Of a stretch of DNA of 64,000 nucleotides, positions 1,169 through 64,000 are shown piece after piece (position 1 is the stretch's first letter; each line of letters opens with the position of its first letter). The notes under the pieces were generated by a model that saw only the letters and a program-made list of their open reading frames with translations, had not been told where the DNA came from and searched no databases. Source of the DNA: Nocardia vinacea NBRC 16497 (GTDB lineage Bacteria; Actinomycetota; Actinomycetes; Mycobacteriales; Mycobacteriaceae); contig NZ_BAGN01000202.1 of the NCBI RefSeq assembly GCF_000308835.1, positions 62,001 through 126,000 on the forward strand, read 5' to 3'. A program made the position numbers and the translations under genes.

Positions 1169-4100
1169 TCACGAGGTAGTGCCCGGTTTTTCGAGTCTGT
1201 TGAGGTAGCGCTGCCAGCCGAAACCACTGGTCCGGTAGACGGACCGGGTGCGCTCGACCAACTCGCCGTCCGGGTCGCCTTGGGCGTGCCGCAGCGCGAC
1301 TTCGATCGCGCGGGCCGCGAGTGCCGGGACGCCGCCGGGAGCGGCCGCGTCGTGCTCCGCGAGCAGTGCCGCGGCCTCGTCGAGTTCACCCTTGGCGATG
1401 AGGACGTCGGCGAGTTCGAGCCGGGCCAGACCGGCCTCCTCTTCGTGGGCGAGCGCGGCGCGGCAATAGGATTCGGCGGCGTCGAGTTGTCCGGCGGCCA
1501 ACGCGACCGCGGCACGGGTGAGGTCGTTGAGCGGCAGGATCTGTCGATCGTCGAGGCGGCGGGCGTAGCGGTCGGATTCGTCGACCATCGCGAGTGCGTC
1601 CTCGGCGCGGCCCAGATCGAGCAGTGCCTTGGCCTGATTGCTCAGGCCGCGGGAGAGGCCGTGCTCATCGTCATTGGCGCGGTCCACCTCGGTGGAGCGC
1701 TGGTAGGCGGCGAGAGCGCCTGCCGCGTCACCCGAATACAACAGCGCGGTGCCGAGTGCGTCGGCGAAGGATGAGGCCTGCGTGACACGCACCGCCAGCC
1801 GCTCCCCCTCGCGCAGGCGCTCGACCGCCGCCGGGAGTTCGGCCCGCTCGATATCGACGATGCCCTGGTAGTAGCGCACGGTCTGGGCGAGTTCGATGTC
1901 GTCCAGTGGCGCGGCGACTTCGCTTGCTCTGACCAATTGTGCTGCGGCGGAATCGAAATCGCCGGTCATCAGGGTGTGGAAGCCGTAATGACTCTGCGCC
2001 TGCGCCAATTCGGCCGGCGAAGTGTCGGCGGGCAGCGAGTCGATCAGTGCGCCGTAGTGGCGTCGCGCCTCGCGGAACCAGGCCCTGGCCAGCCAGGGGA
2101 CATGCATTGCGGTGGCGAGTCGTAAACCGGCGGCGGCTCTCGGTGTGCCGGGTGCGTTTTCGAGAGCGGCGAGGATATTCGGCCATTCGGCGAAGACCGC
2201 CGCCACGGATTCGGCCGTTGCGAAATCGTCGGGCTCGCCGATCTTTCGCACCAGATCGAGACACCAGTCCACGTGCCGGGCACGTAGGGGGTCGGTCTCG
2301 TGGGTTTGCGCCAGTTGTGCGAGTGCATAGTCGCGGACCGTCTCCAAGAGCACGAATCGCCTTGTCACACCGTAGTTCTGGACCGTCACCAAGCTTCGAT
2401 TCACCAGATCCGCGAGTGCGGGCGCGATATCGCCGCCTTCGAGATCCGCGCCGGGCGTGACAGCTTCGGCCGCCTCCAGCGTGCACCCGCCCGCGAATAC
2501 CCCGAGCCTGCGCAGTACCGTCCGCTCCCGTTCGGCCAGCAGTTCATAACTCCAATCCAGGGCCACCCGCAGACTCGTATGCCGTCCTCCCCCGGCATCC
2601 CGCGCCCCGCCGACCAACAGCCGGACCCGGTCGTCGATGCGCTGCGCGAGTTGCGAAATCGTAAGCGTCCGAGTGAGACCTGCGGCCAACTCGATCCCCA
2701 GTGGCAGCCAATCCACCGCCGCGCAGATCCGTACCAGTTCCGCTCGCTCATCGACAGTGACCAATCCGTGCAATCCGGCACGTTCGGTGAACAGCGCGAC
2801 GCCATTGCCACGTTCCAGCGGACCCAGCGGATAGACCGACTCGCCCGTTACTCCCAGTGCTCGTTGTGAAGTGATCAAGATACTGGAATCGGCTGCTGCA
2901 GTTGCCAATTCAGTAACGGGTTCGATCAGATGCTCGGCATTGTCGAGGATCAACAAGACTTGCTGTGCGTTGTCGCCGGTGTGGACCGAATTCGTCGATG
3001 CCACGAGGTCACGTTGCGCACTCGAGCCAGCTGGGATTTCCGAAGTACCCAACGCCGCAACAATTCCCGGCAAGACGTCATCGGGGTCGATCGGAATGTC
3101 TTCCGTCAGGCCATTCGTCTCGAGTACTGCGAGCACTGCGGGCAGCACGTCCTCGGCTCGGGCCAGGGGTGCCAGTTCGACGAAGGCGACCGGGCGGCCG
3201 GAGTTGGCGGCGGCACGGGCGAGTTCGGCTGCGAGGCGCGACTTTCCGCTGCCTGCGACGCCGACCAGGGTGGTCAGGCCGGGTTCGGCGAGGCGGGCAC
3301 CGAGCGTGTCGAATTCGCGGCCGCGGCCGATGAAACTGGTCGCCGGGGCCGAGACGACCGGGTCGGGGTGTGGTGCGGCGGTTGCTGGTTCGGTGGTGAC
3401 GGGCGTTGTGGGGATCGGCGCGGCATTCGCGGGACGCAGAATCGGATCGTGGTCGAGGATGCGCAGCTCCAGCGCGGCCGTCTCCGGTGCCGGGTCGACA
3501 CCGAGTTCCTCGGCGAGATTTCGGCGCAGGCGGGCGAGCCGGTCGAGTGCGTCCGCTTGTCGCCCAGTGCGATACAGCGCCAAGGCCAGCAGACCCGAGA
3601 GCGGTTCGTGCAGCGGATACCGCGCCACCAGGCCGGTCAGTTCGGTGACGACCTCCCCGGCCGCTCCCAATTCCAGATTGGCCTCCAGCCCTGCCACGGT
3701 CAGCGACAGCCGCCAATCGTCGAGTCGGTCCCCCTCGGCCGCCGCATACGGAACGCTGCGCAGATCGGCCAGCGCGGCTCCACGCCACCGCCCCAGCGCC
3801 TCTCGCGCGGCCGCCGCGACACCGGCATGGTCACCAGCCCGACGCGCGGCATACAGCCGCTGCGCCGCTGCCTCCGCGGTCACCAGATCCGCTGCCCTCG
3901 AGCTCGCGTGATATCCGGCAGGCGTCCGTCCGATGACCTCCGCATGCGCCCCGAGCGCCGCCCGGAGCCGCGAAACCACCACGCGCAGCCGCTGTACCGG
4001 TCGCTCGACATCCGCGCCCCACAGATCCTCGGCCAGCCGCCCATCCGGAACCGGCACACCGTTCGCCAATGCCAACCGCACCAGCACCGCACGCTCCAGT

Positions 4101-5470: not shown

Positions 5471-6385
5471 TCAGGCGGTGACGCTTGCCTTCTCCAGGAT
5501 CTCCCGCGCCAGCGCGGCGGTCTCGGACGGCGTCTTGCCGACCTTCACGCCGGCGGCCTCGAGCGCATCCTTCTTCGCCTGGGCGGTACCGGCCGAACCG
5601 GACACGATGGCGCCCGCGTGGCCCATGGTCTTGCCCTCGGGGGCGGTGAAGCCCGCGACGTAGCCGACGACCGGCTTGGTGACATTGGCCTTGATGTAGG
5701 CCGCGGCCCGCTCCTCGGCGTCGCCGCCGATCTCACCGATCATCACGATCAGCTTGGTCTCCGGGTCCTTCTCGAACGCCTCGATGGCGTCGATGTGGGT
5801 GGTGCCGATGACCGGGTCGCCGCCGATGCCGATGGCGGTGGAGAAGCCGAAGTCACGCAGCTCGTACATCATCTGATAGGTCAGGGTGCCGGACTTCGAC
5901 ACCAGGCCGACCGGGCCCTTGCCGGTGATGTTGGCCGGGGTGATGCCGACCAGCGCCTCGCCGGGGGTGATGATGCCGGGGCAGTTCGGACCGATGATCC
6001 GGGTCTTGTTGCCCTTCTCCACGTTGTAGGCCCACGCGTACGCGGTGTCCTGCACCGGAATGCCCTCGGTGATGACCACGAGCAGCGGGATCTCCGCGTC
6101 GATGGCCTCGATGATGGCGTCCTTCGAGAACTTCGGCGGCACGAACGCGATGGACACGTCGGCGCCGGTCGCCTTGATGGCCTCTTCGACGGTGCCGAAG
6201 ACCGGCAGCTCGACCGCGTTGCCGTCCTTGTCGGTGTGCGCGACGGTGGTGCCCGCCTTGCGCGCGTTGACGCCGCCCACGACCTGGGTGCCGGCCTTGA
6301 GCATCAGCGCGGTGTGCTTGGTGCCCTCACCGCCGGTGATGCCCTGGACGATGACCTTGGAATCCTTGTTGAGGAAGATAGACAT
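5471..6385 (-). CDS. sucD: succinyl-CoA synthetase (ADP-forming), alpha subunit
   Basis: 304 residues, full length. Catalyses the substrate-level phosphorylation step of the TCA cycle together with SucC. The N-terminal CoA-binding Rossmann fold contains [15 protein letters not shown]; the second half carries the active-site phosphohistidine loop [14 protein letters not shown] near residue 258. It starts 11 bases after the sucC stop, so the two form one sucCD operon, and it ends at the hairpin at 5424-5455. Confidence 0.97.
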
Positions 6386-58518: not shown

Positions 58519-59904
58519 ATGTCTGAGGTTGCGCTGGGGGAATTCGTGGCGGAGATGGCTGCGAAGTTCGGGGTACCGGGGGCTGCGGTCGGGGTGTGGG
58601 TTGATGGGCGGGAGGTTTTCGCCGCGCATGGGGTGACGAGTATCGAGAGTCCGGTGCCGGTGGATCGGGACACGATGTTCGTGCTGGGGTCGGTGAGTAA
58701 GACGTTCACCGCGACGGCGTTGATGCGGCTCGTCGCGGAGGGCAAGATCGAGTTGGCTGCGCCGGTGCGGCGGTATGTGCCGGAGCTGGTGCTGCGCGAT
58801 GAGGCGGCCGCGGTGGAGATGACCGTGTTCAATCTGCTCAATCACACTGCGGGGCTGGGGATTCGGCTGATTGTCGAGACCGGGGACGGGGACGACGCGC
58901 TGGCCGGGTATGTGGCGCGACTGGACGAGTTGGATCTGATCGGGCCGGTCGGTGCTCGCGCGTCCTATTCGCAGGCGGGGTACAACCTGCTCGGGCGGGT
59001 CATCGAGAAGGTCACCGGGCTGACCTTCGAGAAGGCGGTCGCGCAACTGCTGCTCGATCCGATCGGGCTGTCGCACAGTCGTTATCTGCCGAGCGAGATC
59101 ATGACTCGGCGCTTCGCGGTCGGACACAATCGCGGCGCGGATGGCGCACTGACAGTCGCACGCGAATGGAAGGACACACGCGCCAACAATCCGGGCGGCG
59201 GCATCGTATCCTCGGTGGCCGACCAGTTGCGTTGGGCGCGTTTCCAACTCGGTGACGGCCGGGCCGAAAGCGGTGAACGGGTATTGCCCGCCGAGGTGCT
59301 GGTGCGAATGAAGGAGCAGACCGTCGAGTTGCAGGGCAGCTCGCTCGGCGATGCCTTCGGCATCTGCTGGTTCCTACGCGATGTGGACGGTGTGCGAATC
59401 GTGAGCCACGGCGGTTCCTCGAACGGCCAATTCGCCGAACTCATTACGGTGCCGGAGCGGAATTTCGCCATTACCGTCATGTCCAACGCAGGCCCCGACG
59501 ACGGCATCCAGTTCAACCAGGCCGTCGTGCGATGGGCGCTGGAGCACTATCTCGGGTTGATCGACAAGGATCCCGAACCCCTGCCCTTCGATCCGGCACG
59601 CGCCGAGGAGATCGTCGGCGACTATGAAATCGACGCCATGACCCTCACCATCGGCACCGATGAGACCGGCCTGACAGTTGCCTGCGGAATCAAACCCGAG
59701 GTCCGCGCCGCATCCGAAACCGAACTTCCCCCGGACCTTCCGGCGGCCGGTCTCGGCCTGCTGCCCGGCAACCGCGACGAATACATCGTCACCAGTGGCG
59801 GTCTACAAGGTCAGCGCGGTTTCTTCACCCGCGACGAACGCGGCCGAATCGTTGGCGCCGATATGGCCGGACGGATGTTCAACCGGGTCTCGACCACGGC
59901 CTGA
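58519..59904 (+). CDS. serine hydrolase of the class C beta-lactamase / EstB family
   Basis: 461 residues. Penicillin-binding fold with SxxK nucleophile motif GSVSKTFTA (near 55), second motif YSQAGYNLLG (near 152, the Tyr-x-Asn region), and third motif SHGGSSNGQFAEL. The C-terminal 90 residues form a separate lipocalin-like beta domain. Without a signal peptide it is likely cytoplasmic and more probably an esterase or peptidase than a beta-lactamase. It is divergent from the Uma2 gene. Confidence 0.88.
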   Translation: MSEVALGEFVAEMAAKFGVPGAAVGVWVDGREVFAAHGVTSIESPVPVDRDTMFVLGSVSKTFTATALMRLVAEGKIELAAPVRRYVPELVLRDEAAAVEMTVFNLLNHTAGLGIRLIVETGDGDDALAGYVARLDELDLIGPVGARASYSQAGYNLLGRVIEKVTGLTFEKAVAQLLLDPIGLSHSRYLPSEIMTRRFAVGHNRGADGALTVAREWKDTRANNPGGGIVSSVADQLRWARFQLGDGRAESGERVLPAEVLVRMKEQTVELQGSSLGDAFGICWFLRDVDGVRIVSHGGSSNGQFAELITVPERNFAITVMSNAGPDDGIQFNQAVVRWALEHYLGLIDKDPEPLPFDPARAEEIVGDYEIDAMTLTIGTDETGLTVACGIKPEVRAASETELPPDLPAAGLGLLPGNRDEYIVTSGGLQGQRGFFTRDERGRIVGADMAGRMFNRVSTTA

Positions 59905-62691: not shown

Positions 62692-62701
62692 CACTCGGAA
62701 A

Positions 62702-62750
62702 GGCAAGAGCCCCGTACCTCATCTTCTCGACGAGGTGCGGGGCTCTTGCC
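62702..62750. terminator. long hairpin terminator between DUF6968-like and NRPS genes
   Basis: GGCAAGAGCCCCG (62702-62714) pairs perfectly with CGGGGCTCTTGCC (62738-62750), and ACCTC/GAGGT extends the stem after one mismatch. The loop is about 11 bases. It lies between convergent genes and should stop transcripts from both sides. Confidence 0.8.
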
Positions 62751-62777
62751 TGCATGTACCGCGCAGGGCGGTCTCGG

Positions 62778-64000
62778 CTATTCGACGATCACGATTCGCA
62801 CGTCTTCGTCCGCCGCATCGGTCGGCTCGTCGACGGTGACGAACCAGTGGGTGACTTCGCCGTCGGCTAGGTCATCCGCGATGTCGTCCGCACCCGGCAG
62901 GACCGAGAGGGCGCCGGCGGTGGCTGCGGACAGGAACTCGAGCAGCGCGGGGCGGCCCGAGACGGCGGTGGTGAAGGTTGTGGATTCGTAATCGATTTCG
63001 TATTCCGAGCGGAACTGCTCGGCCTGTTCGAGGGCCTCGGTCTGGCTGAAGGCGCGTACGGTGCCGTCGGCCGTGAGGACCACGAAGGCCGGGTGCTCTT
63101 CGGCGAGCGGGCGGACCCGATCGGCGTAGGAGACCGGGTGCGACGGGGCGGCTGCCAGTTCGGCCTGTACCGCCGGATCGCTCGGCACCAACCAGTTGAT
63201 CGGACCGTCGGTCGGCTCCAGCGTGATACCGAAAACGGCTCCGGCGGTAGCCATTTCGGCGGCGGACAGATCACCGGCGAACAGGCAGGCGGCACCGGCC
63301 TTCTGGATTGCCCAGACCGCGACCACCGCATCCACCGAACGCGGCAGCGCCAGGGCCACCACATCGCCGGGTCCGGCACCGTGCGCGATGAGTACCCGGG
63401 CCAGTTGCGAGGAACGGCGATCCAGGACGTGGTAGGCGATTTCGTCGCCGTCCACGAGCAGCGCGGGCGCCTCCGGATCCGCCTCGACCACCTCGGCGAG
63501 CACCCTCGACACCGTGCGCGCACCGACCCGGCCCACCGGTTCCGGTGCGGCCGCGGTTGCCGCGATACCGGATTCGACGAGCAGGCGGGCCCGCTCACCG
63601 GCATCGAGGATATCGATATCGCCGACCAGTCCGGCGGAATCGCCGAGCAGTGCGTCCAGTACCCGGATCAGCCTGGTGGACAAGGTTTCCACCTCTTCGG
63701 CGGTGAACCGGCTGAGCAGGTACTCGAAGGTGAATTCGAGGGTGGACTCCGCGGTCACCTGCAGCGTGAGCGGGTAGTGCGTCGCACTTTCCATGCCGAC
63801 ACCGGTCACCGACATGCCGTCGATCGAACTCGCCGCTGCGATCGCCTCCCGATCGATCGGGTACGACTCGAACACCAGCAGGGTGTCGAAGTGCGAGGCG
63901 ATTCCGGCGGCCCGCTGGATATCGGATAGGCCGACGTAGTGGTGGTCGAGCAGCTCGGTCTGGTCGCGCTGCAACCGCTCGAGCTGATCGTCGATGGTCG
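62778..64000 (-). CDS. C-terminal end of a non-ribosomal peptide synthetase (condensation tail plus truncated adenylation-like domain)
   Basis: About 407 residues are visible; the gene runs off the right edge. Residues up to about 150 are the end of a condensation-type domain (LQRDQTELLDHHYVGLSDIQ, HYPLTLQVT, FTAEEVETL). Next comes an AMP-binding-like N-terminus (VADPEAPALLVDGDEIAYHVLD-type, AGPGDVVALALPRS). The ATP-binding core A3, usually TSGSTGxPKG, reads FVVLTADGTVRAFSQTEAL, and the protein ends about 250 residues into the domain, with no carrier or thioesterase domain. So the last module looks inactive or non-standard. Confidence 0.85.
   Translation of the reverse strand, partial: TIDDQLERLQRDQTELLDHHYVGLSDIQRAAGIASHFDTLLVFESYPIDREAIAAASSIDGMSVTGVGMESATHYPLTLQVTAESTLEFTFEYLLSRFTAEEVETLSTRLIRVLDALLGDSAGLVGDIDILDAGERARLLVESGIAATAAAPEPVGRVGARTVSRVLAEVVEADPEAPALLVDGDEIAYHVLDRRSSQLARVLIAHGAGPGDVVALALPRSVDAVVAVWAIQKAGAACLFAGDLSAAEMATAGAVFGITLEPTDGPINWLVPSDPAVQAELAAAPSHPVSYADRVRPLAEEHPAFVVLTADGTVRAFSQTEALEQAEQFRSEYEIDYESTTFTTAVSGRPALLEFLSAATAGALSVLPGADDIADDLADGEVTHWFVTVDEPTDAADEDVRIVIVE

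Follow-up and report, generated by a model that had tools for sequence, protein, structure and literature searches.

How does a giant nonribosomal peptide synthetase (NRPS) come to end halfway through an adenylation (A) domain, and what becomes of its peptide chain? The question is raised by the window analyzed here, a stretch of 64,000 nucleotides from Nocardia vinacea NBRC 16497 that comprises bases 62001-126000 of a contig of 143,405 bases. The C-terminal 406 residues of the giant NRPS are encoded on the minus strand (62778..63998), with the stop codon at 62778-62780, and the gene continues past the window edge. The frame is open up to that edge and onward to the contig end, 17.4 kb further, for a total of 6,208 residues; this copy is therefore cut at its 5' end. 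Of the last condensation (C) domain, the C-terminal part lies within the window (63579..63998, minus strand; Pfam PF00668, residues 3-140 of the 406), and its HHVLIDG active site (motif ITTHHVLIDGWSM) is found beyond the window edge, within the contig. What follows is a tail of 249 residues (62781..63527, minus strand), hereafter half-A, which corresponds to the front half of an adenylation fold, stops short of A5, and matches the Pfam AMP-binding profile only at positions 3-82 of 384. The domain reading of the window's giant shows no T, TE or other domain after this tail. The original prediction of an NRPS that terminates, after a C domain, in a truncated A-like domain with neither carrier nor release domain is confirmed by this 249-residue stub and the stop behind it. 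A hairpin terminator had also been proposed. The hairpin itself is strong and lies between convergent gene ends (62701..62751; -44.8 kcal/mol, z -9.2), and it is likely a terminator shared by both genes, though no clear T run was seen after it by eye on either strand.

Adenylation domains are described by core motifs that include A3, A4 and A5 (YGPTE) to A10. When aligned with full A domains, half-A corresponds to the domain front, from which the A3 loop has been lost by deletion and substitution: at 63042..63086 (minus strand) it reads FVVLTADGTVRAFSQ where full A domains have YTSGSTGxPKG, in agreement with the missing A3 core noted originally. Among the features of a functional A domain, the A3 P-loop TSGSTGxPKG is thus absent from the tail, as is A4 FDxS, and A5 (YGPTE) to A10 and Asub are lacking altogether. 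Since A3 and A4 are lost and the protein ends before A5, half-A, judged by its sequence, cannot be an adenylating enzyme. Modeled alone, the tail of N. anaemiae, which is among the nearest relatives, gave a confident prediction (pLDDT 94.9, pTM 0.93) that compares well with 8www (Z 29.2, rmsd 2.2, 247 residues aligned) and with residues 36-302 of GrsA 1amu (Z 25.3). The predicted fold of the tail is accordingly that of the N-terminal part of Acore, the front of an A domain. In a model of C-halfA (749 residues) both parts are mostly confident but their mutual arrangement is not (pTM 0.56), and alignment across both parts with solved C-A didomains gives an rmsd of about 20; given these values, a normal C-A platform is not supported by this model.

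The half-A end is a property of the genus. With the 249-residue tail as query, 134 of 150 same-genus genomes gave a match at E<=8.1e-58, whereas in the remaining 16 matches reached only E ~1e-28 to 1e-38, which is what other A-like stretches score. A comparison with other Nocardia synthetases had been suggested as a check; all 30 loci read (the best 30) have the stop at the identical place. A scan of named genomes led to 80 loci, all titled Nocardia; a stop closes the frame after the tail in 80/80, and the A3 motif ([TS]SG[ST]TG) occurs in the tail of none of them. The tail is present in N. farcinica NCTC11134 as well. The tail evolves with a dN/dS of 0.10-0.22 (six pairs). The conservation in 134/150 genomes, the common stop and the low dN/dS rule out a frameshift, a sequencing error or a decayed pseudogene as the cause of the half-A end, and bear out the earlier statement that the sequence is not decayed. 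A pseudo-domain with a structural role, one of two functions first proposed for the tail, is supported by its conservation, the purifying selection, the confident predicted fold and the lack of adenylation motifs.

Complete tail-bearing genes from six genomes encode proteins of 12,327-17,321 residues, built as 10 to 14 C-A-T repeats with two to four E domains, followed by E-C-halfA or C-halfA. The giants of G142, G121 and G018 have 12 repeats (about 14,600 residues), those of G003 and G034 have 10 (about 12,400 residues), and that of G144 has 14 (17,321 residues); in the 150-genome search, tail-bearing stop-to-stop frames reached 18,118 residues. A precorrin-4 methyltransferase-like gene, recognized by eye, borders the giant's locus in G142 (C1, 5959403-5960167) and in G034 (C2, 590479-591222), and the synthetase block beside it is inverted between these two genomes. 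Among the Nocardia clusters listed by Komaki 2014 (PMC4035055), #35 has 12 modules, is credited with 'Ser-rich 12 aa peptides' and occurs in seven strains, while #4 is given as 4+7 aa. The former is probably the giant, and the latter probably represents the two-gene clusters of the half-beta/startI type described below, both matched by module counts and not by accession. In the accessible part of that paper the product is taken to be complete where the gene ends, and neither the half-A end nor a split between C and A (C//A) is mentioned.

Several NRPS per genome end in C-halfA, and in several an A domain comes first, preceded by an arginine-rich leader (A-start proteins). On phylogenetic trees the Nocardia tails split into two classes, half-alpha, to which the window's tail belongs, and half-beta; the A-start domains likewise divide into startI and startII. 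The 12 half-beta genes parsed encode two-module proteins of about 2,450 residues, one protein of 3,023 residues, as well as the giants of G116 and G134. The next gene is a same-strand A-start NRPS within 309 bases in 11 of the 12, the exception being G126c. For half-alpha, an NRPS adjoins the tail in four loci (G003, G034 and two of G009), and by trees and best matches it is a startII A-start protein in all four. In G034, two such proteins stand in a row after the tail, one TE-ended and the other reductase-ended. Beside the giant, no A-start neighbor was found in any of the 80 named loci, 74 of which offer 5 kb or more of 3' flank, nor in G142, G121, G018 and G144, nor in the window.

A family search covering 301 genomes returned strong half-A matches in other genera, from the strongest of which 17 genomes were fetched, partly because two matches lay close together; this sample is therefore not random. 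It contains 26 closed C-halfA genes, and in 24 of these a same-strand A-start NRPS comes next (at up to 463 bases in 23 cases and at 3,259 in the other), whereas the other two (G174, and G224 at 5829) precede a gene on the opposite strand. Three-protein chains, in which a protein ending in ...E-C-halfA is followed by A-T-C-A-T-C-halfA and then by A-T-...-TE, are present in G259, G291, G344, G352 and G415, and also in G331 as far as it was read. In none of the parsed loci does a C-halfA gene precede an NRPS that starts with C. As a control, A-start genes were also found after TE-ended genes in the same loci (9/9 with a same-strand NRPS next). The clusters are rich in A-start genes, so the neighborhood alone is not specific; the weight rests on the complementarity of a C without A-T and an A-T without C, on the absence of C-start followers, and on the match of classes. 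One candidate from outside Nocardia was discarded: the match on pRHL1 of Rhodococcus jostii RHA1, first taken for a named half-A, is actually C-A-T-C, a stand-alone synthetase of 1,486 residues that ends in C (L299, 10621-15081) and whose record carries no annotation.

In the giant and its homologs, then, the upstream protein ends in a C domain without A-T. In the relatives, the gene that comes next usually opens with a complete A domain preceded by an arginine-rich leader. The tail thus probably marks a module divided between C and A over two proteins, and the last C most likely condenses the chain with the residue carried by the protein that supplies the missing A-T. The stub is kept in most Nocardia and sits at the seam of two proteins in its relatives, and is therefore probably a part for coupling rather than the mark of a broken gene. 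We consider it probable that half-A is a pseudo-adenylation half-domain at a C//A subunit boundary, scaffolding and docking a split module whose second part is, here, provided in trans. Docking, scaffolding, the trans partner and the product are all elements that we infer.

It had also been proposed that the terminal C domain may release the product. The chain would then be joined to a free amine, to water or to itself, and half-A would only steady the C domain. The catalytic motif of the last C would allow this: HHxxxDG is present in 79/80 named Nocardia loci, and in the exception, L290 (N. altamirensis), the domain was read only from profile position 188. The giant, moreover, has no TE and in most Nocardia no NRPS beside it. 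A precedent exists in glidonin biosynthesis, where a terminal C adjacent to a non-functional partial A domain adds putrescine (PMC10587159). As described in the accessible text of that report, however, the glidonin C-A*-T-TE end retains the other half of the domain, the C-terminal Asub, and continues into T-TE, whereas alignment of the giant shows the N-terminal half, after which the protein ends. Together with the A-start proteins that lie next to homologous C-halfA ends, in 24/26 cases outside the genus and in 11/12 of half-beta, where the following protein begins with just the A-T that is missing, this makes release by the C domain an unlikely reading. The X domain of glycopeptide synthetases has a degenerate HHxxxDG; the intact motif sets the last C of the giant apart from it.

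On the trees, the half-A tails form a group apart from the A-start and internal A domains (27 rows, SH-aLRT 99; G116o, a record-start artifact, is a stray row in this tree and was left out of the larger tree and the charge counts). In the larger tree the half-A group comprises 45 rows plus one A-start row on a long branch, and this tree carries a warning of long branches. By adjacency, half-beta pairs with startI (11 cases) and half-alpha with startII (4 cases); the Fisher p of 0.0007 is a description and not a test, because the loci share ancestry. Eleven A-start domains from other genera join the Nocardia startII on the tree (31 rows, SH-aLRT 99). Ten of these come immediately after a C-halfA gene; in the remaining case (G164) a half-A match lies just beyond the stretch fetched. 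In five three-protein chains (G259, G291, G344, G352, G415) the second subunit is nearest to startII and the third nearest to startI by best matches. The tails themselves sort poorly outside Nocardia, where several from first subunits lie about equally close to half-alpha and to A-start domains or half-beta.

These relationships bear on whether startII proteins are the acceptors of the giant's chain. Canonical NRPS initiation modules begin with A-T, and the startII proteins could likewise be ordinary Nocardia initiators; the tail would then still dock, but onto some other partner (an isolated A-T, another NRPS or a tailoring enzyme). In line with this, a startII-type best match (E<=5.9e-58) is found in 16/16 genomes without a half-alpha tail. 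StartII can therefore exist without a half-alpha donor, and in these genomes it must be fed otherwise or initiate. The 'ARREGR' leader is present in the same 16 genomes and so is not exclusive to the giant's tail. On the other side, startII is the next protein in 4/4 half-alpha loci with an adjoining NRPS, and its relatives in other genera follow C-halfA genes, which makes them second (once third) subunits there and not initiators. We regard this alternative, with startII proteins as ordinary initiators in Nocardia, as unlikely. Two A-start NRPS with an E-type end and a TE-like stretch before it (G000:C390 28521-39245; G142:C1 7926424-7937106) directly follow a TE-ended gene, and no partner was seen for them there.

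The 16 tail-less genomes also allow the opposite derivation to be considered, namely that half-A is what is left of a lost A-T-TE end and that the giant makes little or nothing. Homologs with a full A-T-TE end had been named as the finding that would point to a frameshift in this copy, and in 9 of the 16 tail-less loci read the nearest E-C does run on into A-T-TE. In G134, the one of these in which the whole locus was parsed, that A-T-TE nevertheless ends a different A-start protein and the giant still ends in C-halfA. Neither a frameshift nor a sequencing error is involved. The giants of both G116:C1 and G134:C117 (loci L149-L158; 17,344 and 13,481+ residues) end in half-beta and are followed by an A-start (startI) NRPS with TE. 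An end point common across the genus, the low dN/dS, open frames of 12,000-18,000 residues and homologous stubs at active-looking junctions in other genera all argue against a leftover, which we consider highly improbable. After its last E, the G134 giant reads C-A-T-C-A-T-C-halfA, the order expected if a giant and a middle subunit were joined; as proof of a fusion this is unsupported, as the A domain concerned falls outside startII on the tree.

The charges at the facing protein ends suggest how a split module of the proposed kind might be held together. Half-A tails carry a net charge of -16 to -32 (median -25, n 45); in 179 internal A domains, the initial 250 residues have a median of -11 (range -23 to +3). 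In a count over the named loci, one row of 81, at +2, probably stems from something other than a giant tail. The leaders before the A domain of A-start proteins, delimited by putative start codons, are positive in 60/61 (median +6), and the 40 residues before internal A domains have a median charge of -4. The single negative leader, in G158, follows a gene that ends in a plain C according to the parse. This junction (G158:C1, about 443,700; locus L213, 3-3791), where a plain-C-ended gene precedes an A-start NRPS with an acidic leader, is perhaps another kind of C//A junction. In the window, the last 40 residues of the giant (62781..62900, minus strand) are acidic by charge count and form a candidate contact for the arginine-rich leader of a partner.

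In the split-module mechanism that we favor, the giant would build its chain over its modules up to a last, apparently intact C domain that lacks an A-T. This A-T would be the N-terminus of another NRPS, an A-start protein with an arginine-rich leader. Half-A, folded as an A-domain front, would give the C domain the neighbor it normally has, and its acidic character would let it dock the basic leader of the partner; the C domain could then couple the chain to the amino acid loaded on the partner's T domain. Because the partner does not lie beside the giant in most Nocardia, the hand-over would there occur in trans, to one or more startII proteins encoded elsewhere in the genome. A single half-alpha tail is present in the source genome, together with four startII proteins (contigs 390, 392, 268 and 226); these four A-start synthetases are the likely partners of the window's giant. 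In each of six genomes counted there are one half-alpha and two to four startII proteins, a ratio that allows one donor to feed several acceptors. Somewhat speculatively, the giant might thus serve across the genus as a naturally combinatorial NRPS, its chain being passed in trans to any of several alternative terminator synthetases that share a leader code. The alternative acceptors would be TE- or reductase-ended, or would act as relays to a third protein; the two A-start proteins in a row in G034 would be one such pair.

Junctions with a related logic have been described for other megasynthases. A 'split module', with docking elements at the facing protein ends, is described for trans-AT PKS in the accessible text of PMC9113145. 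C-halfA resembles it in that a module is spread over two proteins with elements at their facing ends, and differs in that an NRPS is cut between C and A and that the element is half an A domain (about 250-285 residues) and not a short helix or tag. Known classes of NRPS docking domain include the COM helix-hand and betaHD/SLiM; the giant's tail is itself half of an A domain. In the syringomycin (SyrE/SyrB1), albicidin, ramoplanin and enduracidin systems a missing or dead A domain is similarly supplied by another protein (PMC8949500); as far as that source describes them, a separate A-T there feeds a module that keeps its own T, whereas here the acceptor A-T heads a multimodular NRPS. A search of the open-access literature returned no description of a half-A end or of such a C//A junction.

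If the proposed reading is right, the products of conserved giant synthetases have been predicted too short, as the gene end was taken for the chain end. The half-A and arginine leader, in two matched classes, would also constitute a natural, orthogonal-looking junction for joining NRPS parts between C and A. A shared-donor assembly line would be testable in Nocardia, whose conserved large peptides lack an assigned role in the literature found. Two further observations concern the window itself. The end of the last C domain (63609-63973) shares 77% DNA identity with a C domain at G000:C268 36962-37326, which belongs to a TD-ended startII synthetase, a hint of exchange between the two genes. 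Elsewhere in the window, a frame of 461 residues on the plus strand (58519-59904) resembles, by eye, a hydrolase of the serine beta-lactamase type.
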